From Lentibacter algarum (GTDB taxonomy: Bacteria; Pseudomonadota; Alphaproteobacteria; Rhodobacterales; Rhodobacteraceae), in NCBI RefSeq assembly GCF_018860975.1, contig NZ_JAHKQI010000003.1, positions 62,001 to 126,000 of the forward strand: a DNA stretch of 64,000 nt, written 5' to 3'. Shown here one piece after another: positions 6,088-59,350 of the stretch. The stretch's first letter is position 1, and each line of letters starts with the position of its first letter. The position numbers and the translations under genes were made by a program. The notes beneath the pieces were generated by a model. That model had not been told where the DNA came from. It worked only from the letters and a program-made list of their open reading frames with translations, and searched no databases.

Positions 6088-6729
6088 ATGCAGATCATTG
6101 CCGACATCGCCAATCTTGACGGCAATGATTTCACATCCTGCACATTCAAATCACTGCGTTTTGATGACATGGATCTTTCACAATATCACTTTGACAATTG
6201 CACCTTTCAGGACTGCACGTTCAAAAACGCACTCCTTGAGGACAGCTCTTTTGTAAAATGCTCCGCAATGCAGGCCGACTTCAGCTATGCGCGCGCCTCC
6301 GACACGTGGTTTACAGGGTGCAATCTGTCTCTCACAAAGTGGTCGAGCGCAGATATCTCAAGCGCAAGGTTCCATGATTGCAAGCTCACAGGCGCCGACT
6401 TTCAGGATGCACGCGCTCTGGGATCAGACTTCAAAGGCTCCCTTCTTACAGGGGCTTTCCTGCGCAAAATGAACTTTCGGAAATGTCAGTTAGACGGGAT
6501 AGACTTTACAGAGGCTGACCTCGCCGAATGCGACTTTCGCGACGCTACCTTTGACAGGTGCCGACTGAACAATGCCCATTTAGCAACCGCTCGTTTTGAG
6601 GGTGCCGACCTGCGATCAGCCGACCTCGGCGTTCTGACGCTCTCCACCGCGACGTGCTTCAAAGGCGCGGTCATTTCCAAGGCGCAAGCCACCGAGTTAT
6701 TGCATGGTTTGGGCGTTTTGGTTCTTTGA
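6088..6729 (+). CDS. Pentapeptide-repeat protein, Qnr-like
   Basis: 213 residues built almost wholly of A(D/N)LXX-type pentapeptides, with many C-x-F and A-D-F steps (for example F-D-N-C-T-F-Q-D-C-T-F and G-A-D-F-Q-D-A). Such proteins fold as right-handed quadrilateral beta-helices. The length and a C-terminal helix after the repeats (A-T-E-L-L-H-G-L-G-V-L-V-L) match Qnr proteins (about 218 residues), which mimic DNA and protect gyrase from quinolones; chromosomal relatives occur in aquatic bacteria. Gyrase binding here is inference. The gene follows the quinone reductase closely and may share its transcript. Confidence 0.82.
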   Translation: MQIIADIANLDGNDFTSCTFKSLRFDDMDLSQYHFDNCTFQDCTFKNALLEDSSFVKCSAMQADFSYARASDTWFTGCNLSLTKWSSADISSARFHDCKLTGADFQDARALGSDFKGSLLTGAFLRKMNFRKCQLDGIDFTEADLAECDFRDATFDRCRLNNAHLATARFEGADLRSADLGVLTLSTATCFKGAVISKAQATELLHGLGVLVL

Positions 6730-6745
6730 TGAGTCTTTGAGCTTG

Positions 6746-7618
6746 TTACGCAGAGCGCACCATTGGCAGCACAGCCTTGCCATAGCCCTGCCGGATCAAA
6801 TCCGCCAAATGCGCAGTTGCCTCGTCGCGGGCAATCGCCCCGTAAAGGTTGATCTTCTGACGGCCAAGGTCTGGTAAGCCACAGTTCGCAGGCAGCGCTT
6901 CCAAGTGTGGCGGGATACTGTCTTCCATCATCGCGCCGATGGCGAGATCAGCGCTGATCATTGCTTCGACAGAGCGGTCTTCAGACGACTCTATCGCCAT
7001 ATCCCACACCATGTCTGCCAGCTCCAACTTGCTCAGAACCAGCGGACGAAAGATACAAGACGAGCAAAAAGCCAGCGGCAACGGCGTCTTACGCCACACC
7101 TGCCCGCCAATTGCACCAACCCAACGCAGCGGCATCTCTGTCAGGGTCTCGCCCCCCGACAGTGGCTGCGCTTCGGTGGTCAATATCAAGTCGGCCTCGC
7201 CCTTTGACAGCGTATCATGCAGGCTCATCGTGCTTGACGACAGCAGCCTCACCTTGACCCTCGGGTAAGCCGCATGAAACGCCTTCAGCACCTGCGGAAC
7301 AATCGGATACACCACGTCATGCGGTGCGCCGAGGGTGATCTCGCCCTCAAACACATCTTCTGTCAGCCGCCCCACGGCCTCGTCATTGAGCGCAACCATG
7401 CGCCGCGCAAAGGTGAGCAATTGCTCGCCATCACTGCTCAACGCGATCTTGCGACTGCTGCGGTCAAGCAGGTTGACGCCCAAAAGCTCTTCCAGCCGTT
7501 TGAGCTGCATCGACACGGCTGATTGGGTGAGATTGAGCATCCCTGCCGCCCGGGTGACGCCGCCGTAGTCAGCCACGGCCAAAAACGAGCGCAGTGTGGT
7601 GATGTCGAGGTTTCTCAT
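6746..7618 (-). CDS. LysR-family transcriptional regulator
   Basis: 290 residues from the ATG at 7618, which has GGAG about eight bases upstream; an upstream in-frame extension to 7759 is non-coding. The winged helix-turn-helix covers 1-60 (L-R-S-F-L-A-V-A-D-Y-G-G-V-T-R-A-A, then Q-S-A-V-S-M-Q-L-K-R-L-E). The substrate-binding domain starts near residue 88 with G-E-I-T-L-G-A-P. It is divergent from a DUF1127 gene 114 bp away, so that gene is the likeliest target besides its own promoter. The ligand is unknown. Confidence 0.9.
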   Translation of the reverse strand: MRNLDITTLRSFLAVADYGGVTRAAGMLNLTQSAVSMQLKRLEELLGVNLLDRSSRKIALSSDGEQLLTFARRMVALNDEAVGRLTEDVFEGEITLGAPHDVVYPIVPQVLKAFHAAYPRVKVRLLSSSTMSLHDTLSKGEADLILTTEAQPLSGGETLTEMPLRWVGAIGGQVWRKTPLPLAFCSSCIFRPLVLSKLELADMVWDMAIESSEDRSVEAMISADLAIGAMMEDSIPPHLEALPANCGLPDLGRQKINLYGAIARDEATAHLADLIRQGYGKAVLPMVRSA

Positions 7619-7732
7619 ATCAAACTCCGTGATGATGCCTAAACAAACATTCATTTTCCTTATGTCAGAAGCCCGGCTACATATCAATACATAGAATGTA
7701 ACACCGCAACATATCACAAAAGGAGAATTGAT

Positions 7733-7951
7733 ATGACACGAGCACTGACAAACACCCACGCCATCCGCGCAACACCAGCACGTGAGGTTCGCTCCGGATG
7801 GCTCTCAGCCCTGTTGCAAACCCGCAAATCACGCCGCGCTCTTGGCGCGCTCAGCGCCGAGCAGCTCAGAGATATTGGCCTCACCCAAGCGCAGGCCAAA
7901 GCCGAAAGCCGCCGCCCTGCATGGGACGTGCCGCAATATTGGTGCAAATAA
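7733..7951 (+). CDS. DUF1127 small arginine-rich protein
   Basis: 72 residues. The C-terminal half carries the DUF1127 signature: R-R-A-L-G-A-L-S-A-E-Q-L-R-D-I-G-L-T then E-S-R-R-P-A-W-D. AGGAG lies eight bases before the ATG. In alphaproteobacteria some DUF1127 proteins bind RNA and influence sRNA processing or phosphate and carbon metabolism (CcaF1 in Rhodobacter is an example). The N-terminal 25 residues are not conserved in pattern. It is divergent from the LysR gene and followed by an intrinsic terminator, so it is probably monocistronic. Confidence 0.85.
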   Translation: MTRALTNTHAIRATPAREVRSGWLSALLQTRKSRRALGALSAEQLRDIGLTQAQAKAESRRPAWDVPQYWCK

Positions 7952-8013
7952 GCTGACTTAGGGCACCGGTTGTCCTTGAAATATGCTGCGACCTCACCGA
8001 TATTGAATAAGAA

Positions 8014-33156: not shown

Positions 33157-33295
33157 ACAGCTTGCCTGTCGTGCTTTGAGCACGGCGGGCAACATCCCGC
33201 TCTGATAGAAGTCGGGAAATCTTCCCCCTAGCGCTGAGCAGGGCCATGCCATAGGTTGCAAACAACGGAACACTTGTGACAAATCTGGGGGATTA

Positions 33296-33379
33296 ATGTC
33301 AGAAACCGGCCTTCAAAAACTTGCCTTCGCCCTATTGGTGCTACTGGTGCTTTATGTCTCCGTTTGGGGAAGCGCCTGA
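33296..33379 (+). CDS. 27-residue membrane peptide upstream of xpaC-like gene
   Basis: The frame reads M-S-E-T-G-L-Q-K-L-A, then a run of hydrophobic residues (F-A-L-L-V-L-L-V-L-Y-V-S-V-W) and a short G-S-A end: a single membrane helix with an amphipathic N-terminus. Its TGA overlaps the next gene's ATG (ATGA at 33376-33381 region), and GGGGG lies before its own start, both signs of real translation. The function is unknown; it may be a leader that couples translation or a small partner of the membrane protein XpaC. Confidence 0.65.
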   Translation: MSETGLQKLAFALLVLLVLYVSVWGSA

Positions 33380-34245
33380 TGGCACAGCGATATGGCGGCA
33401 AGCATAGCCCTGAGACAGGCGACAGTAGCTATCGGGGCGCACGGCGCACGCGAGCTGGCGGGCGGGTAAACCTATTGTTTCTCGCGCCTTTGCCTATGGT
33501 TTGGCAGGCGTTCACATCCCCTCCTGCTGAAATGTTCATGTGGCTTGTAGCGCTCGGATCAATGCTGCTTGCGGCTTGGCTGACACGTGATGGCTTGATC
33601 GCTCAGGAGGCGTATGATGCGCGCAAGGTTGCCCGCCGTCCGGCTGTTCCGCGCAAAATTCTTGGCTCTTTGCTCACTGGCGCCGGCTTGGCTGTTGCCG
33701 GTTACGTAGGTTTCGGTCTTGGCTCTGCTGTTATCTTTGCCGTTCTTGGCGCCGTATTGCACTTTGCTGCGTTCGGTGCTGACCCTCTGAAGAACAAAGG
33801 CATGGACGGTGTTGACGAATTCCAAACCGACCGCGTCGCACGAGCAGTTGAAAAAGCCGAGGAGCATCTCAAAGCCATGACAAGCGCCGCGCACCGCGCA
33901 GGTGACAGGCAGGTTGAAGCCCGCGTAGAGAGTTTTCAGATGCAAGTGCGAGAGTTGCTGCGCACAGTCGAGGAAGACCCGCGCGATCTCACCGGCGCAC
34001 GCAAGTTTATGGGCGTCTACCTCAAAGGCGCACGCGATGCCTGTGAGAAGTTTGCTGACGTTTACACCCGCGCGCAGTCACCTGATGCCAAGGCCGACTT
34101 CATGACGCTATTGAGTGATTTGCAAGCCAGTTTTGACGCCAAAACCAAACACCTTTTACTCGACAATCACAGCGATCTGACTGTCGAGATCGAAGTTCTT
34201 CGCGATCGCCTGAAGCAAGAAGGCATTCGCCTCGACCAATCATAG
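33379..34245 (+). CDS. XpaC-like protein (5-bromo-4-chloroindolyl phosphate hydrolysis family)
   Basis: 288 residues. A basic Gly/Arg-rich N-terminus is followed by two hydrophobic hairpins (about 35-75 and 95-125) and a long helical, cytoplasmic C-terminal half (about 140-288) with conserved K-F-M-G-V-Y-L-K-G-A. This is the XpaC domain, named after a Bacillus phosphatase phenotype but without a proven activity; it is regularly found beside TelA. The TelA-like gene follows after 22 bp, supporting a joint membrane complex. Confidence 0.82.
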   Translation: MAQRYGGKHSPETGDSSYRGARRTRAGGRVNLLFLAPLPMVWQAFTSPPAEMFMWLVALGSMLLAAWLTRDGLIAQEAYDARKVARRPAVPRKILGSLLTGAGLAVAGYVGFGLGSAVIFAVLGAVLHFAAFGADPLKNKGMDGVDEFQTDRVARAVEKAEEHLKAMTSAAHRAGDRQVEARVESFQMQVRELLRTVEEDPRDLTGARKFMGVYLKGARDACEKFADVYTRAQSPDAKADFMTLLSDLQASFDAKTKHLLLDNHSDLTVEIEVLRDRLKQEGIRLDQS

Positions 34246-34267
34246 ATTAACGAAAGTGAGCTCCCTC

Positions 34268-35464
34268 ATGACTACGAAAATCCAAGAAAAAGCCAAAGAG
34301 ACACTCGCCATGGTGGAAGAGGTGAACGCCGTTGTTTTGCCCGAGCCCGTCGCTGCTAATGCTGTCGTTCCGATGGCAGAAGCGAAAGGCGAAGTGAGCA
34401 AGGAAATCAAGTCGCGTATGGGTGAACTTGATATGTCTGACACACAGTCAATCGTATCATTCGGCTCAGCGGCTCAGGCGGAATTGCAAGAAATCTCCCA
34501 GTCAATGCTGCAAGGCGTGCGCAACAAAGACGTCGGCCCTGCGGGCGACAGCCTTCGCGGCATCGTCACCACAATCCGTGGTTTTTCAGTTAGCGAGCTT
34601 GATGTTCGCCGCAAGCGCACATGGTGGGAGCGCCTGCTCGGCCGGGCAGCACCCTTCGCTAAGTTCACGGCAAAGTTCGAGCAGGTCCAAGGCCAGATCG
34701 ACCGCGTGACAGAAGACCTTCACGAGCATGAGCACACGCTTTTGAAAGATATCAAGTCACTCGATATGCTCTATGAAAAGACGCTTGATTTCTACGACGA
34801 GCTGGCGCTTTACATCGCCGCTGGCGAAGAAAAGCTGCGTATTCTGGATGAAAAAGACATCCCGGCTTATGAGAAAAAAGTGGAGAAAGCCGCCGAGAAG
34901 AACAAGGTGATGAAGGCCCAAGAACTGCGTGATTTGCGCGCTGCTCGTGATGACCTGGAGCGCCGGGTTCACGACCTCAAGCTCACGCGGCAAGTGACGA
35001 TGCAGTCACTCCCCTCGATCCGCCTCGTGCAGGAGAACGACAAATCGCTGGTGACAAAGATCAACTCGACTTTAGTGAACACCGTGCCTCTTTGGGAGAC
35101 GCAATTGGCGCAAGCCGTGACGATCCAACGCTCGGCCGAAGCCGCCGCAGCGGTGCGTGACGCCAATGATCTGACCAACGAGTTGCTCACTTCGAACGCC
35201 AAGAACCTACGCGAGAGTAACAAGATGATCCGCGAAGAGATGGAACGTGGTGTGTTTGACATCGAAGCTGTCAAAGCCGCCAACGCCGACTTGATCGGCA
35301 CCATCGAGGAGAGCTTGCAAATTGCCGACGAAGGCAAGGCGCGCCGTGCATCGGCTGAAGTCGAGCTCAAGAAGATGGAAGCTGAACTGCGCGACACCTT
35401 GGCCTCGGCCAAAGCACGTAAAACGGGCACAGGCGACAATGCCAGTACCGCTGTTCCCTCGTAA
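34268..35464 (+). CDS. Toxic anion resistance protein, TelA family
   Basis: 398 residues, soluble and strongly helical, with long coiled-coil stretches (about 190-250 and 330-390). The segments R-K-R-T-W-W-E-R-L-L-G and L-P-S-I-R-L-V-Q-E-N and the N-T-V-P-L-W-E-T-Q-L-A-Q-A-V region are typical of TelA. TelA is named for tellurite resistance on plasmid RK2, and its relatives respond to cell-envelope stress; the mechanism is unknown. ATG 34268 is chosen over GTG 34256. It sits between XpaC and a DUF2927 lipoprotein in one unbroken plus-strand unit. Confidence 0.9.
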   Translation: MTTKIQEKAKETLAMVEEVNAVVLPEPVAANAVVPMAEAKGEVSKEIKSRMGELDMSDTQSIVSFGSAAQAELQEISQSMLQGVRNKDVGPAGDSLRGIVTTIRGFSVSELDVRRKRTWWERLLGRAAPFAKFTAKFEQVQGQIDRVTEDLHEHEHTLLKDIKSLDMLYEKTLDFYDELALYIAAGEEKLRILDEKDIPAYEKKVEKAAEKNKVMKAQELRDLRAARDDLERRVHDLKLTRQVTMQSLPSIRLVQENDKSLVTKINSTLVNTVPLWETQLAQAVTIQRSAEAAAAVRDANDLTNELLTSNAKNLRESNKMIREEMERGVFDIEAVKAANADLIGTIEESLQIADEGKARRASAEVELKKMEAELRDTLASAKARKTGTGDNASTAVPS

Positions 35465-35470
35465 GAACGG

Positions 35471-36442
35471 ATGTTTGCGGGTAAAACATTTCGAACAATC
35501 GGGCTGGCCTTTATAGGGCTGGCCCTTTTGGCCGGATGCGACTTGCCGATGCGAGAAAGCCTCAAGCCGCAAGCGCGCCCTGCAGACTTGATAAAACCGG
35601 CAACCGCGCCTTCAGCCAAGCCCAAGCCCCAATCGAAAACGTCACTGGCTTTGTCAGAGCACTACGTCAAATTGCAGGCACATTTGCTTGCACAAGGTTT
35701 GCTACGTCGTGACGGCGGTGGCCCTGACACCGGCTTTCGTGCCGCCGATCTGGCGCGGAACTTTGAAGCTATTGCCTTTCACAGTGAGCATGGCGCTAGC
35801 CCTCTGATCTCAAACGCAGGCACGATCACCCGCTTTCATCGCTGGCGCGGTTCCGTGCGTGTCGCAGCGCATTTCGGCGCGTCCTCCGATCCTGCCCAAC
35901 GGGCAAAAGACCAGGCCGCACTCAAGACTTATCTGCCAAGACTAAGTCGTGTAAGTCGCCATGCAATCGGCTCTGCCCCTGAAAGCGGGGCAAACTTTCA
36001 TGTGCTGTTTTTTGGCGCTGACGAGACCGAGGAACTGCGCAAAACTGTGCAGCAAGTCTGGCCCGGCTTTCCTCAAAGCAGCCTTAACCAGATGACCAAC
36101 CTGCCGCGCGACATCTACTGTCTGGTTTATTCCAACGTATCCTCGGCGGCGATGGGCGCAGAACAAGCGATAGCCCTTATCCGCACCGAACACCCTGACC
36201 TTATGCGCCTGTCGTGCATCCACGAGGAAGTCGCGCAAGGGCTAGGCCTGTCCAATGACAGCCCTTACGCGCGGCCTTCTATCTTTAACGATGACGAAGA
36301 GTTTGCGACACTTACAACGCATGACGAACTGCTGCTGAAAATGCTCTATGATCCGCGCCTCAAAAACGGGATGACACTTCAAGAGGCGCGTCCGATCATT
36401 GCCACGATCGCTGCCGAACTCACCGGAGAAGTAGCGTCATGA
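35471..36442 (+). CDS. DUF2927 lipoprotein (cluster copy)
   Basis: 323 residues. A lipoprotein signal ends in L-L-A-G-C at 18-22. After a proline- and lysine-rich linker, the DUF2927 domain occupies about 90-310: R-F-H-R-W-R-G-S-V-R-V, then I-Y-C-L-V-Y-S-N and the conserved C-I-H-E-E-V-A-Q-G-L-G-L-S-N-D with S-I-F-N-D-D-E-E. The H-E-E segment resembles a metalloprotease zinc site, but catalysis is unproven. It starts six bases after telA, so it belongs to that operon. A second, more distant copy is at 57.98 kb. Confidence 0.83.
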   Translation: MFAGKTFRTIGLAFIGLALLAGCDLPMRESLKPQARPADLIKPATAPSAKPKPQSKTSLALSEHYVKLQAHLLAQGLLRRDGGGPDTGFRAADLARNFEAIAFHSEHGASPLISNAGTITRFHRWRGSVRVAAHFGASSDPAQRAKDQAALKTYLPRLSRVSRHAIGSAPESGANFHVLFFGADETEELRKTVQQVWPGFPQSSLNQMTNLPRDIYCLVYSNVSSAAMGAEQAIALIRTEHPDLMRLSCIHEEVAQGLGLSNDSPYARPSIFNDDEEFATLTTHDELLLKMLYDPRLKNGMTLQEARPIIATIAAELTGEVAS

Positions 36443-36536
36443 TTGCCGGTCTTCACAGGGCGCGCAAGCAACGGGCTCTAACGCGACACACCAATTTCGG
36501 CTGACGAGCCAAACACCACAAGCAAAGGAGACACCC

Positions 36537-37634
36537 ATGGGTATTTTTGATTTTCTGACAGGCGAATTCATCGACGTCATTCACTGGGTTGATGACAGCC
36601 GCGACACGATGGTCTGGCGCTTTGAGCGCGAAGACCATGAGATCAAATATGGTGCAAAGCTCACTGTGCGAGAGGGCCAAGCCGCTGTTTTCATTCACGA
36701 AGGCCAGATGGCAGATGTGTTCACGCCCGGGCTTTACATGCTTGAAACCAACAACATGCCGGTTCTGACAACGCTCAATCACTGGGATCACGGCTTTGAA
36801 AGCCCGTTCAAATCCGAGGTCTACTTTGTCAACACCACGCGCTTCAACGACTTGAAGTGGGGCACCAAAAACCCGATCATTGCGCGCGATCCGGAGTTCG
36901 GCCCCGTGCGTCTGCGCGCCTACGGCAGCTACACTGTCAAGGTCAGTGATCCGGCGAAGTTCCTTGTTGAGATCGTTGGAACAGACGGTGAGTTCACTAT
37001 GGACGAGATCAGCTATCAGATCCGCAACATCATTGTGCAGGAGTTCTCGCGCACAATCGCCCGCTCAGGCATTCCGGTGCTTGATATGGCTGCAAACACC
37101 CGCGAACTCGGCACTATTGTTGGCCGTGACATCGCGCCGCGCCTTGCGGAATACGGCCTTGAAATGCCGGAGCTCTACATCGAGAATATCTCGCTCCCCG
37201 AAGCCGTCGAAGCCGTGTTGGACAAGCGTACCTCGATGGGCGTGGTGGGTGATCTGTCGACCTATATGAACTTCCAGGCTGCCGAGAGCCTCACTCACGA
37301 GGGCGCAGGAGGCGCCGCTTTGCAAGCCGGTGTTGGTGCCGGTTTGGGGATGCAGATTGCCCGTGAGAGTGCTCAGTCAGGCTCTTTGGGGGCAAGCACA
37401 TCTAAAACGCCCCCGCCGCCACCGGTTGAGAAGGTTTGGCACATTGCCGAGAATGGCGAGAGCAAGGGCCCCTATTCGCGCGCCGCTATGGGCCGCATGG
37501 TAGCCGATGGCGCACTCACTCGCGAAACGCTGGTTTGGACCGCAGGTCAAAACGGCTGGCTCGCCGCGGCACAAGTCACCGAACTTGCGCAACTCTTCAC
37601 GATCCTGCCGCCGCCCCTGCCGACGAACTCATAG
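36537..37634 (+). CDS. SPFH-domain protein with C-terminal GYF_2 domain
   Basis: 365 residues. An SPFH (band 7-like) domain covers about 20-250: Y-G-A-K-L-T-V-R-E-G-Q-A-A-V-F at 39-53, P-G-L-Y-M-L, then R-L-R-A-Y-G-S-Y and V-L-D-M-A-A-N. This is the YdjI/'virion core protein-like' subgroup without a membrane anchor. A Gly/Ala and Pro-rich linker leads to a GYF_2 domain at about 300-350 (G-P-Y-S-R-A-A-M-G-R-M, W-T-A-G-Q-N-G-W). Such proteins assemble at membranes as scaffolds. AAAGGAG precedes the ATG. It is followed by the zinc-ribbon membrane protein. Confidence 0.85.
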   Translation: MGIFDFLTGEFIDVIHWVDDSRDTMVWRFEREDHEIKYGAKLTVREGQAAVFIHEGQMADVFTPGLYMLETNNMPVLTTLNHWDHGFESPFKSEVYFVNTTRFNDLKWGTKNPIIARDPEFGPVRLRAYGSYTVKVSDPAKFLVEIVGTDGEFTMDEISYQIRNIIVQEFSRTIARSGIPVLDMAANTRELGTIVGRDIAPRLAEYGLEMPELYIENISLPEAVEAVLDKRTSMGVVGDLSTYMNFQAAESLTHEGAGGAALQAGVGAGLGMQIARESAQSGSLGASTSKTPPPPPVEKVWHIAENGESKGPYSRAAMGRMVADGALTRETLVWTAGQNGWLAAAQVTELAQLFTILPPPLPTNS

Positions 37635-37679
37635 GGCTTTGCCCTTGGCACAATTACTTTCGCCGAAGGCCTAGAACTC

Positions 37680-38792
37680 ATGGATGAGCACACGCCTACA
37701 GAAGTGACAGAAAGTCACCGCTTTCCCTGCCCTCAATGCGGGGCAGACTTCCGCTTTGATCCGGGGCAAGAGCAGCTTGTCTGCGACCACTGCGGCAGCA
37801 CCGAGGAAATTGGTGTCGGCCGCGGGAATGGTATCAAGGAACTTGATATCGAGGCCGGCCTCGGGGCGGTTCTTCCTTCGCAAGATTTTGAAGAAACCCG
37901 TGTTTCGAAATGCCCTAATTGCGCAGCACAAGTCGAGTTTGATGCCAACACCCATGCCGCCGAGTGCCCGTTTTGCGCCACCCCTGTTGTCACTGACACC
38001 GGGCTGCACCGGCAGATCAAACCGCGTGCAGTGTTGCCTTTCGCCCTTGACGAGCCAACCGCACGTAGCGCAATGAAAGACTGGCTCGGGGCACTCTGGT
38101 TCGCCCCCAACGGTCTTAAGAAATATGCTCGCAAGGGCCGCAAGATGAACGGTGTTTACGTGCCTTACTGGACGTATGACGCGAAGACAGTCTCGGCATA
38201 TTCAGGCGAGCGGGGCACAGTCTATTACGAAACCCGGTCAGTCATGCGTGACGGCAAACGCGTTCAACAGCGCGTTGCCAAAATCCGCTGGCAAGGCGTG
38301 CGCGGCCGTGTGGCGCGTTTCTTTGATGACGTGCTGGTGCTCGCCTCCAAGAGCCTGCCGAAAAGGTTTACTGATGCCCTCGAGCCTTGGGATCTGGCTG
38401 CACTTGAACCTTACCGCCCCGAGTATCTCGCCGGATTTCGCGCTGAAGGCTACAGCGTTAGTCTTGCGGACGGCTACGAGGAGGCCCGCATGCATATGGC
38501 CCGCGTCATCGAGCGCGATGTGAAGTTTGATATCGGCGGCGACCGGCAGCGCATTCATGATATCAACACCGACGTCAGTGATGTGACATTCAAACACATC
38601 CTGCTGCCTGTCTGGCTCGCGGCTTACAAGTATCGTGGGCGCACCTACCGCTTTGTCATCAATGGCCGCACAGGGCGTGTGCAAGGCGAACGGCCCTACT
38701 CGGCTTGGAAGATTTTCTTTGCCGTTCTCACAGGCCTGATGCTGGCGTTGATCATCGGCTACATTTACGGCGTCAATGAAGGAGCCTTCTGA
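37680..38792 (+). CDS. Double zinc-ribbon protein with C-terminal membrane helix
   Basis: 370 residues. Two zinc ribbons occupy the N-terminus: C-P-Q-C-G-A with C-D-H-C-G-S (about 19-41), and C-P-N-C-A-A with C-P-F-C-A-T (about 79-101). A large middle domain contains Y-V-P-Y-W-T-Y-D-A, and one hydrophobic helix lies near the end (F-F-A-V-L-T-G-L-M-L-A-L-I). Relatives are often mislabelled as primosomal protein N-like helicases but have no helicase motifs. Its place after the SPFH-GYF2 gene is a recurring pairing; it is probably a membrane-tethered partner. Confidence 0.8.
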   Translation: MDEHTPTEVTESHRFPCPQCGADFRFDPGQEQLVCDHCGSTEEIGVGRGNGIKELDIEAGLGAVLPSQDFEETRVSKCPNCAAQVEFDANTHAAECPFCATPVVTDTGLHRQIKPRAVLPFALDEPTARSAMKDWLGALWFAPNGLKKYARKGRKMNGVYVPYWTYDAKTVSAYSGERGTVYYETRSVMRDGKRVQQRVAKIRWQGVRGRVARFFDDVLVLASKSLPKRFTDALEPWDLAALEPYRPEYLAGFRAEGYSVSLADGYEEARMHMARVIERDVKFDIGGDRQRIHDINTDVSDVTFKHILLPVWLAAYKYRGRTYRFVINGRTGRVQGERPYSAWKIFFAVLTGLMLALIIGYIYGVNEGAF

Positions 38793-39463
38793 TGCAACCC
38801 GAATTTGATAGCTTAACGCGCGTTATGAAAGCTCGCTATTCTTGCCGAGCATTTCTGTCACAACCTGTTAAACGTGATTTGATCGAGCAGATCGTGCATA
38901 CCGCCCGCCGTTCGCCTTCATGGTGTAACGCGCAACCATGGCAACTGACAATCACAACAGCCGAAGAGACGGCAAAGCTCGGTAAGGCGCTCTATGAGCA
39001 CGCCTCCCAGAACACTATGCAGCCAGATCTGCCTTGGCCGGAAGGCTATAGCGGTGCCTACAAAGCGCGGCGCTTCACCTGTGGTATGCAGCTTTATGAT
39101 GCGCTTGACATTGGCCGCACAGACAAGCCCGCTCGTGCTGCTCAAATGCTTGAGAACTTTCGCTTCTTTGGCGCTCCACATGTCGCAATTGTTACGTCCC
39201 CCCGCGAGTTGGGCGCTTATGGTGCACTTGATGCAGGCGGGTTTGTCACAGCCTTTACCCTTGCTGCGCAGGCTTCGGGTGTAGCCAGCATCGCGCAAGC
39301 GGCTCCGGCTGGCTACGCCCCGTTCCTGCGCAACTACTTCGGTCTTTCGGACGACAAGCTCGTCCTTTGCGCAGTCTCGTTTGGATATGCAGATGAAGCC
39401 CATAAAGCCAACAGCTTTCGCACCGAGCGCGCGACAACTGATGAGATTATTGACTGGCATTAA
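38792..39463 (+). CDS. Nitroreductase-family protein
   Basis: 223 residues. The FMN-binding N-terminus is S-C-R-A-F-L-S-Q-P-V, followed by A-R-R-S-P-S-W-C-N-A-Q-P-W, and the C-terminal Y-G-L/F-G-Y-A-D segment. These dimeric flavoenzymes reduce nitro groups, quinones or enones with NAD(P)H in the cytosol. The start overlaps the zinc-ribbon gene stop by one base (TGATG), so it is co-translated with the cluster, though its function may be unrelated. It converges on the lipoprotein gene at 39.47 kb. Confidence 0.9.
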   Translation: MQPEFDSLTRVMKARYSCRAFLSQPVKRDLIEQIVHTARRSPSWCNAQPWQLTITTAEETAKLGKALYEHASQNTMQPDLPWPEGYSGAYKARRFTCGMQLYDALDIGRTDKPARAAQMLENFRFFGAPHVAIVTSPRELGAYGALDAGGFVTAFTLAAQASGVASIAQAAPAGYAPFLRNYFGLSDDKLVLCAVSFGYADEAHKANSFRTERATTDEIIDWH

Positions 39464-57629: not shown

Positions 57630-57982
57630 GCCGGTCTTCAGGCCGCACAAGCGCGATATCCGTGAACGTCTTCAAAAAGTTTAGGCCTAGTGTTGCGTAA
57701 AGACAATACCGCAACGCATTGTATTTGCTGAATTTTCAGAGATATCCACACTCCCACTCCCTTGCCAATTCAAATTGTCACTTTTTCGCCCCAATTCATC
57801 CTTAACCAAGTCAGGAAGGGCAGCGACAAGTCTGCTCAAAGAATAAGACCGAGGCAGAACCTGACAATGACGACCTATTCGCTTGCTACACATGAGTGTG
57901 TGCAGACGGGAGCGCTAGCTCTTGTCACGCACCTCGAACATCCAGCGCATATTCTGTGCTTCTCTATGTTGGAGGGCTTTTG
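57630..57982. other. Intergenic region before the second DUF2927 gene
   Basis: About 350 bp. It holds an inverted repeat GTTGCG-N12-CGCAAC at 57692-57715 and a 38-codon frame (57867-57983) whose TGA overlaps the next ATG but which has a weak ribosome site. Nothing else is evident. Confidence 0.4.
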
Positions 57983-59350
57983 ATGCGCAAGGTCGTGTTA
58001 CCGCTTTTGATGTCACTCGTGGGCTGTATGCCCGGCAATATGTCTGACACTGCCTCACGGGGCTTTGTGCAGGACACCGTCGCCCCAACCGGCTTGCCGC
58101 CTCTGAAAGTTTTCACCTCAACGCAGCCGACGCGCCCGACACGCTCCAACCGTGACATCGCCCGCGATTTTCTTGAGCTGTCGTTTAACTTGGAATCGGG
58201 CCGTGAACTGCCGGCGCTGACGCGGTTTGAGCACCCTATCAGCGTGCGGTTGACGGGGGCTCCACCCGCATCGTTGCTGCCTGATCTGACACGCCTTATC
58301 TACCGCATGAAAACCGAGGCGGGCCTCAATGTCTCACTCACCCGTGCGAGTGACGCCAACATCACGGTGCAAGCCGTCAGCCGCGCCGAAATCCGCAAGA
58401 GCCTGCCGTCGGCAGCTTGTTTTGTTGTGCCCAATATTTCGGACATTTCCGAGTATAAAGCCGCGCGGCGCACCGCGAAAACCAACTGGGCCCTGCTTCG
58501 CAACCGTGAAAAACTGGCGATTTTTGTTCCGAATGACGCAAGCCCGCAGGAAGTTCGCGATTGTCTGCATGAAGAGCTTGCCCAAGCGATCGGGCCACTG
58601 AATGATCTTTATCGCTTGCCTGACAGTGTTTTTAACGACGACAACATTCACACTGTTCTGACTGGCTTTGATATGCTGATTTTGCGGGCATATTACGCCC
58701 CCGAGTTGCGCACCGGAATGAGCAAACGCCAGGTTGCGGCTGTTCTGCCGACAGTTCTCGCGCGGCTCAACCCTGCCGGTGAAAACATTTCACCGCAACG
58801 CACGGCTCCAACACCACGCAGCTATATCACTGCCGTTCAAACTGCGCTTGGCCCGGGTTCTAGCATGCCGCAACGCCGTAAGGCGGCGCAAAAGGCGCTC
58901 GACATTTCACGCGCTTTTGGCTGGCAAGATCACCGTCGCGCCTTTGCACATTACGCCATGGGGCGGATCGCATCGCAAACCAACTCCGCGGAAGCGTTGA
59001 AGCAGTTTCAAGCTGCCGATCAGTTTTACGCCCGCACGCCGAACACCGGCTTGCACCGCGCCTATATCGCTTCGCAGCTGGCCTCGCATGCCCTCAGCCA
59101 AGGTAACGGAGTGCGTGCGCTTTCGCTTGTGAACCCGGCGATTCATGTTGCCAGACGCCACGAAAATGCCGCCCTGCTCAGCACCCTGATGCTGTTGCGC
59201 GCTGAAGCGCTCGAGTTGACGGGGCGTTCTTCAGAAGCGCGGCATGTCAGGCTGGACAGTCTTGGCTGGGCGCGTTACGGCTTTGGTTCGGACTGGGCAG
59301 TGCGTGCAAAGATGCGCGAAATCGCAGCGCTTAGCCCGACACGAGGTTAA
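57983..59350 (+). CDS. DUF2927 lipoprotein with C-terminal helical repeats
   Basis: 455 residues from ATG 57983 (GGAGGG upstream). A lipoprotein signal ends in L-V-G-C at about 12-15. The DUF2927 domain covers about 65-280, with R-D-C-L-H-E-E-L-A-Q-A-I-G-P-L-N-D and S-V-F-N-D-D-N-I, the same core as the 35.47-kb protein. From about 300 the sequence is TPR-like (A-F-A-H-Y-A-M-G-R-I-A, A-L-K-Q-F-Q-A-A-D-Q-F-Y). It probably acts in the envelope; it stands alone, not in the SPFH cluster. Confidence 0.83.
   Translation: MRKVVLPLLMSLVGCMPGNMSDTASRGFVQDTVAPTGLPPLKVFTSTQPTRPTRSNRDIARDFLELSFNLESGRELPALTRFEHPISVRLTGAPPASLLPDLTRLIYRMKTEAGLNVSLTRASDANITVQAVSRAEIRKSLPSAACFVVPNISDISEYKAARRTAKTNWALLRNREKLAIFVPNDASPQEVRDCLHEELAQAIGPLNDLYRLPDSVFNDDNIHTVLTGFDMLILRAYYAPELRTGMSKRQVAAVLPTVLARLNPAGENISPQRTAPTPRSYITAVQTALGPGSSMPQRRKAAQKALDISRAFGWQDHRRAFAHYAMGRIASQTNSAEALKQFQAADQFYARTPNTGLHRAYIASQLASHALSQGNGVRALSLVNPAIHVARRHENAALLSTLMLLRAEALELTGRSSEARHVRLDSLGWARYGFGSDWAVRAKMREIAALSPTRG

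Follow-up and report, generated by a model that had tools for sequence, protein, structure and literature searches.

A conserved gene unit of Rhodobacteraceae that joins XpaC and TelA to an SPFH/zinc-ribbon pair and a DUF2927 lipoprotein

We analysed a run of genes at positions 33296 to 38792 of a 64,000-nucleotide stretch of the Lentibacter algarum genome (Rhodobacteraceae; contig NZ_JAHKQI010000003.1; hereafter the window, to which all coordinates of this locus refer). A sequence-only reading had described six genes here on one strand, encoding a 27-residue membrane peptide, an XpaC-like membrane protein, a TelA-like protein, a DUF2927 lipoprotein, an SPFH protein with a GYF_2 domain and a zinc-ribbon protein, and had suggested that they belong to one system. 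All six reading frames were confirmed at the same coordinates by frame analysis and Pfam, with the families as named. Comparison across genomes gives good support to the view that the genes constitute one conserved genetic unit in Rhodobacteraceae, whose novelty is a new combination with new parts.

The six-gene locus and its upstream element

The run opens with a membrane microprotein of 27 amino acids, MSETGLQKLAFALLVLLVLYVSVWGSA (33296..33379, plus strand), followed by the XpaC-like membrane protein (33379..34245, +; XpaC/Halogen_Hydrol, PF10112, E 2.6e-25), whose start codon ATG at 33379 overlaps the microprotein stop TGA at 33377-33379 (overlap region 33377-33381). The third gene encodes the TelA-like helical protein (34268..35464, +; PF05816, E 4.6e-107). 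Its longest frame begins at GTG 34256, and homologues start at the in-frame ATG 34268, with tblastn matches mostly from residue 4-5 of that longer frame; the start is probably ATG 34268, not GTG 34256. XpaC and TelA each occur as a single copy in a search of the genome. Downstream are the DUF2927 lipoprotein (35471..36442, +; PF11150, E 4.5e-60), in which Cys23 closes the lipobox and the motif HEExAQxxGxxND is present, the SPFH protein (36537..37634, +; Band_7_1, PF13421, E 9.1e-101) with its C-terminal GYF_2 domain (PF14237, E 1.4e-19), and the zinc-ribbon protein (37680..38792, +; PF08271, 29.6 bits at a cut-off of 29) with a C-terminal membrane segment.

The 27-residue peptide proved to be genuine. 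By strict criteria, 87 of 124 loci have a hydrophobic peptide, 25-43 residues long, that ends a few bases from the XpaC start, and 20 of the remaining 37 carry a matching peptide as judged by motif and eye. It recurs in two forms, with the endings ...LILYVSIAGGV and ...LFGVATGWLGGL. Counted outside the search motif, both forms have an in-frame pN/pS of 0.50, compared with 0.91 and 1.01 in frame +1 and 1.77 and 2.20 in frame +2, which indicates that the frame is selected as protein. On this sequence evidence we regard the peptide as a conserved microprotein under purifying selection. In five loci (L055, L064, L066, L076 and L086), a second, diverged XpaC-like gene lies ahead of the microprotein and XpaC.

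Upstream of the microprotein lies a promoter-like element in two halves, CTTCCCCCTAG (33221..33231, +), with TTCCCCCTAG as its exact core, and ATAGGTT (33251..33257, +), which follows CTAG after 19 nt and matches the family consensus CTAAGTT at five of seven positions. The scan for this element covered loci centred on the operon together with the window. Within 120 family loci (1,856,283 bases) the exact core occurs 45 times, in each case 0.6-1.5 kb ahead of the TelA frame; the window itself holds one match at no more than one mismatch, against 0.43 expected. Altogether 59 element sites were recorded, nine of them without a CTAAGTT-like word, and in the 50 scored sites the distance from CTTCCCCCTAG to that word is 19 nt in 44 and 18 nt in five. 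The fixed spacing suggests a putative promoter in front of the microprotein. With a weight matrix of the element, 66 of 119 regions outscored all controls, but only 19 of the 72 that had no part in its construction did so, and a weaker CTAGC...CCTAT-like pair appears by eye to be kept in many of the remaining regions. A strong-looking inverted repeat without a T run was also seen by eye after terC, at about 33163-33193.

The earlier description of the genes as running without a break holds for the strand and less well for the spacing: gaps of 94 nt on the 5' side and 45 nt on the 3' side flank the SPFH gene, with no plus-strand terminator-like site listed in either, and a seventh gene overlaps the end of the run. 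This gene, nitroreductase-like (38792..39463, +; PF00881, E 6.5e-26), starts at ATG 38792, one base inside the zinc-ribbon stop, and may be an extra member, making an operon run of seven.

Conservation in Rhodobacteraceae and distribution outside the family

We searched four of the Pfam families in 61 Rhodobacteraceae genomes, one per genus. TelA, XpaC and a strong Band_7_1 match (E below 1e-97) were each detected in 54 of them, and the three sets of genomes are identical, so that presence or absence agrees in 61 of 61. A 55th Band_7_1 match (G154) is weak (2e-6). Of the seven genomes lacking all three families, five are at least 97% complete and two fall below 90% (G117, 85%; G128, 74%). DUF2927 was found in 57 of 61 genomes because most of them hold a further copy elsewhere. 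Among the 54 operon genomes, XpaC directly precedes TelA on the same strand in 53, SPFH comes at most 4 kb after TelA in 52, DUF2927 occupies the space between these two in 51, and the full order XpaC-TelA-DUF2927-SPFH on one strand is kept in 50. The exceptions are G113, with SPFH and DUF2927 37 kb away, G099, then G110, which has no DUF2927 match in between, and G118, where XpaC is elsewhere. The sequence-only reading had named rarity outside the genus as the sign that there is no common system; co-occurrence in 54 of 61 genera and full order in 50 of 54 show the opposite within the family. Since the order is kept across genera and the microprotein frame is under purifying selection, the operon run goes beyond chance.

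A second sample consisted of named loci, the best 80 of 586 TelA matches, nearly all titled as Rhodobacteraceae genera; by this selection they are close relatives, 77-85% identical over TelA. XpaC, TelA, DUF2927, SPFH and the zinc-ribbon gene stand together in this order on one strand in 73 of the 80. Six of the seven incomplete loci (L112, L113, L129, L139, L147 and L161) end at a contig or locus boundary, and L153, with no zinc-ribbon gene nearby, is a true exception. Some loci share a contig (L076 with L145, L079 with L154). L145 (JAFKDC010000001.1) is titled Enemella evansiae, an actinobacterium, and carries the operon; the assembly is probably mislabelled or contaminated. In Paracoccus ferrooxidans the run is TelA-DUF2927-SPFH-zinc ribbon, and none of the proteins tested there matched XpaC.

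For 77 of the named loci the upstream sequence reaches 2.5 kb or more; in these, the nitroreductase gene lies just downstream in 37, and TerC, the one Ter protein searched for among TerC, TerD and TerB, lies upstream in only 13. The placing of TerC in the system, as first proposed, is thus not borne out, and the promoter-like element separates terC from the unit. Another reading takes the locus for a Ter-like defence or conflict system. A passage of PMC7824862 describes TelA in Ter operons as thought to build sub-membrane structures in conflicts; no PADLOC family came near significance here, and the locus is stable, single-copy and chromosomal in most genera of the family, so that we consider this reading extremely improbable.

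The expectation of conserved order in Rhodobacterales and other alphaproteobacteria holds across Rhodobacteraceae; outside the family the full combination is rare. In a class-wide draw, TelA was above the cut-off in 9 of 96 alphaproteobacterial genomes drawn across families, and two of the nine, each from another family than Rhodobacteraceae (L044 and L050), have XpaC-TelA-SPFH-zinc ribbon without DUF2927. A phylum-wide draw gave strong Band_7_1 matches in 32 of 249 genomes, of which 13 are Rhodobacteraceae, all with TelA. In genome G347, the gene after XpaC-TelA encodes a protein that combines a partial SPFH domain with GYF_2. Of 12 SPFH loci from outside the family, the adjacent zinc-ribbon match is strong in six, weak in two and missing in four, one of which is cut short. 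The SPFH-zinc ribbon pair stands alone on plasmids of Vibrio coralliilyticus (zinc ribbon E 7.7e-113) and Tsukamurella (1.5e-80), and SPFH-adjacent zinc-ribbon genes were found in other phyla too. In the Vibrio plasmid (L193, 718-8154), divergent genes next to the pair are annotated as encoding TIR-domain and TRAFs-binding proteins, and in L092 (4206-5219, minus strand) a lysylphosphatidylglycerol-synthase-like membrane gene follows the pair.

As the pairs stand apart outside the family, we read SPFH-zinc ribbon and XpaC-TelA as separate modules joined here: the first is an old two-gene module, the second another, and their union has become fixed in Rhodobacteraceae. It could be that the two modules merely share a transcript, acting separately with DUF2927 as a passenger. 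Each pair does stand alone elsewhere, the pairs are unlinked in G113 and G099, and genes are inserted between SPFH and the zinc ribbon in 14 of 41 loci. The perfect match of presence and absence over 61 genomes, the position of DUF2927 between TelA and SPFH and the recurrence of the combination in two other families argue the other way, and we regard independent action as unlikely.

A run of TelA, a lipoprotein and XpaC, as here, occurs in another alphaproteobacterium (L047, 7238-11270, minus strand), but its lipoprotein combines a solute-binding domain with a VWA domain instead of DUF2927, and there is no SPFH or zinc-ribbon gene beside it. More than one form of lipoprotein appears to have arisen in TelA operons.

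Predicted features of the SPFH, zinc-ribbon and DUF2927 proteins

Hydropathy shows no membrane segment in the SPFH protein and one C-terminal hydrophobic segment, at residues 345-363, in the zinc-ribbon protein. The pair resembles the ydjGHI-type arrangement, in which a Band_7_1 SPFH protein has as its neighbour a membrane-anchored protein with zinc ribbons. Proline-rich peptides are the ligands of GYF domains. Among the family SPFH frames with a recognised GYF start, which alone were counted, a proline run precedes GYF_2 in 108 of 109 and follows it in all 109. The same double run is present in the SPFH proteins of L044, L050, L092, Vibrio and Tsukamurella, and absent from those of L095, Novosphingobium, Butyrivibrio and L106, the last of which has GYF_2. 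GYF_2 had been read as a peptide-binding adaptor. The domain is indeed there, but the proline runs that flank it lie in the SPFH chain itself, and none of the four other proteins at this locus in the window has a proline run longer than PP. Given the binding of proline-rich peptides by GYF domains, the natural reading would be self-association of SPFH subunits or a latch.

For the DUF2927 lipoprotein, structure prediction gave a metzincin fold, similar to matrix metalloproteinases (MMP), over residues 97-296; to our knowledge, DUF2927 has had no earlier fold assignment. Sequence profiles gave no match of DUF2927 to peptidases in PDB or Pfam. The predicted fold is that of the metzincins (matrix metalloproteinases, karilysin and snapalysin), but their HExxHxxGxxH motif is missing: in 40 aligned DUF2927 members HEExAQxxGxxND replaces HExxHxxGxxH/D, with A/Q where the second histidine would be expected and N/D where the third would, as placed by motif and not by superposed coordinates. 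H251, E252, E253, Q256, G259 and D263 are invariant in all 40 rows, as is the lipobox Cys23. SIFNDD occupies the likely place of the Met-turn, a position inferred without coordinates, and its F272 is kept in 40 of 40. With the second and third metal histidines gone, the predicted domain may bind peptides rather than cut them.

These features also bear on the possibility of a quality-control complex in which DUF2927 is an active periplasmic protease caged by an SPFH/XpaC/TelA assembly, in the manner of HflKC with FtsH or stomatin with NfeD. The predicted fold and the six invariant residues of the motif region, as expected of a working site, fit such a complex; the absence of HExxHxxGxxH, with the substitutions at the second and third histidines, and an SPFH protein without a membrane segment do not, and we judge it very unlikely.

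Further DUF2927 proteins were seen. A second is encoded in the window (57896-59350, +; 484 amino acids), with the motif HEELAQAIGPLND and a long C-terminal extension, and a comparable second copy is found in most of the 61 family genomes. The L. algarum genome has a third, weak match (G000:C6:35797-36285, E 3.4e-6), and one locus (L089 of genome G149, 6132-7985) has two tandem DUF2927 genes between TelA and SPFH.

A possible membrane-maintenance unit

The pspA-ydjGHI operon of Bacillus subtilis offers the closest comparison for the SPFH/zinc-ribbon half of the unit. YdjI is reported to bring PspA to the membrane together with YdjG and YdjH (PMC8581546), and YdjG to have two zinc ribbons and a transmembrane segment (PMC11237479). 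In both species an SPFH protein without a membrane segment lies beside a two-ribbon protein with one, and the Bacillus operon is linked in these accounts to envelope stress. The unit described here differs in having no PspA or TPM protein, in the addition of XpaC, TelA, DUF2927 and the microprotein, and in an SPFH protein that carries GYF_2 and proline runs at the place for which Ravi et al. describe a zinc ribbon. We detected no PspA/IM30 (PF04012) match at E <= 0.001 in the L. algarum genome, which is 99.89% complete; in a control, the search was positive in 9 of 14 known genomes. PspA exceeded the cut-off in 11 of the 61 family genomes, 10 of them operon carriers, which leaves 44 of 54 operon genomes without it.

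For the other half, XpaC and TelA, we take xpaC and yaaN to be adjacent in B. subtilis. Listeria has the same adjacent PF10112 and PF05816 genes (lmo1966-lmo1967) as 53 of the 54 genomes here, where, in contrast, the pair is joined to SPFH-zinc ribbon and a lipoprotein gene. Passages of PMC12791056 report that the Listeria XpaC/TelA-like genes are induced by bacteriocin and that a TelA mutant showed a 4-fold increase in nisin and a 2-fold increase in tellurite sensitivity. The telA of Rhodobacter sphaeroides, a member of this gene family from a species classified in Rhodobacteraceae, is described as a tellurite locus, being listed among chromosomal tellurite determinants in an excerpt of a review citing O'Gara 1997 (PMC6955997). 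Together with the Pfam name of TelA, 'toxic anion resistance', this listing would fit a tellurite or toxic-anion resistance operon, in which TelA does the work, the rest supports it and oxyanion tolerance is selected. However, the retention of the set as a single chromosomal copy in 54 of 61 genera suggests housekeeping more than resistance, TerC is no steady neighbour, and the stronger of the effects reported in those Listeria passages concerns nisin, not tellurite. We hold this explanation to be quite unlikely.

Taken together, the literature on YdjI and PspA, on Listeria XpaC/TelA and on R. sphaeroides telA points to membrane protection. Our preferred reading, which in our judgement has about an even chance of being right, is a membrane-stress module in which XpaC-TelA is combined with a YdjI/YdjG-like SPFH/zinc-ribbon pair and a metzincin-like lipoprotein is added. 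We infer that the products form one physical assembly, a Rhodobacteraceae membrane-maintenance unit that would be transcribed from its own promoter before the microprotein. At the inner face of the inner membrane, the soluble SPFH protein and the zinc-ribbon protein, anchored through its C-terminal membrane segment, would form a platform like that of YdjG/YdjH with YdjI. That platform recruits PspA in B. subtilis; in this genome without PspA, it would work with XpaC and TelA, the latter in PspA's place. XpaC and the long helical TelA would counter membrane-active agents and oxyanions. With proline runs on either side of GYF_2, SPFH subunits may associate with one another or close like a latch. 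DUF2927 would use its metzincin-like domain to report on the periplasmic side or to act there, and the microprotein may tune XpaC in the membrane.

Several observations weigh against this reading. The upstream element was unrecognised, at up to two mismatches, in 60 of 119 loci, about half. PspA and the TelA operon coexist in 10 of 54 genomes, hence there is no mutual exclusion, and the class draw (PspA in 17 of 96; in 1 of 9 TelA genomes compared with 16 of 87 others) gives no clear avoidance. The TelA model was poor (pLDDT 68.9), so that it speaks neither for nor against a PspA likeness of TelA, and no PspA-like fold was among the 50 matches listed. The likeness of the zinc-ribbon protein to YdjG is one of domain layout, and a Pfam scan confined to the six operon proteins found no YdjH-like TPM domain. 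The SPFH and zinc-ribbon genes are more than 200 nt apart in 14 of 41 loci. Of the 19 genomes outside the family with strong Band_7_1, five have TelA, and in none was it seen beside SPFH, although the contigs of G221 are too short to judge. DUF2927 also occurs without the operon (e.g. in G109 and G125).

A bolder form of the membrane-stress module, possible but doubtful, would be a PspA-independent machine with DUF2927 as its metzincin-derived periplasmic sensor. DUF2927 would then be the founder of a group of metzincin-like domains that are lipid-anchored and have a remade metal site, and would signal by way of the microprotein and XpaC to a self-latching SPFH-GYF_2 ring and TelA, all from one dedicated promoter.

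XpaC, TelA, DUF2927 and the YdjG/YdjI-like pair are all widely distributed and little understood. The comparison adds an easily missed microprotein, a promoter-like word that may serve as a handle on the regulator and a predicted fold for DUF2927. The constant joint occurrence of these families in Rhodobacteraceae, a family with many laboratory strains, makes a shared function testable.

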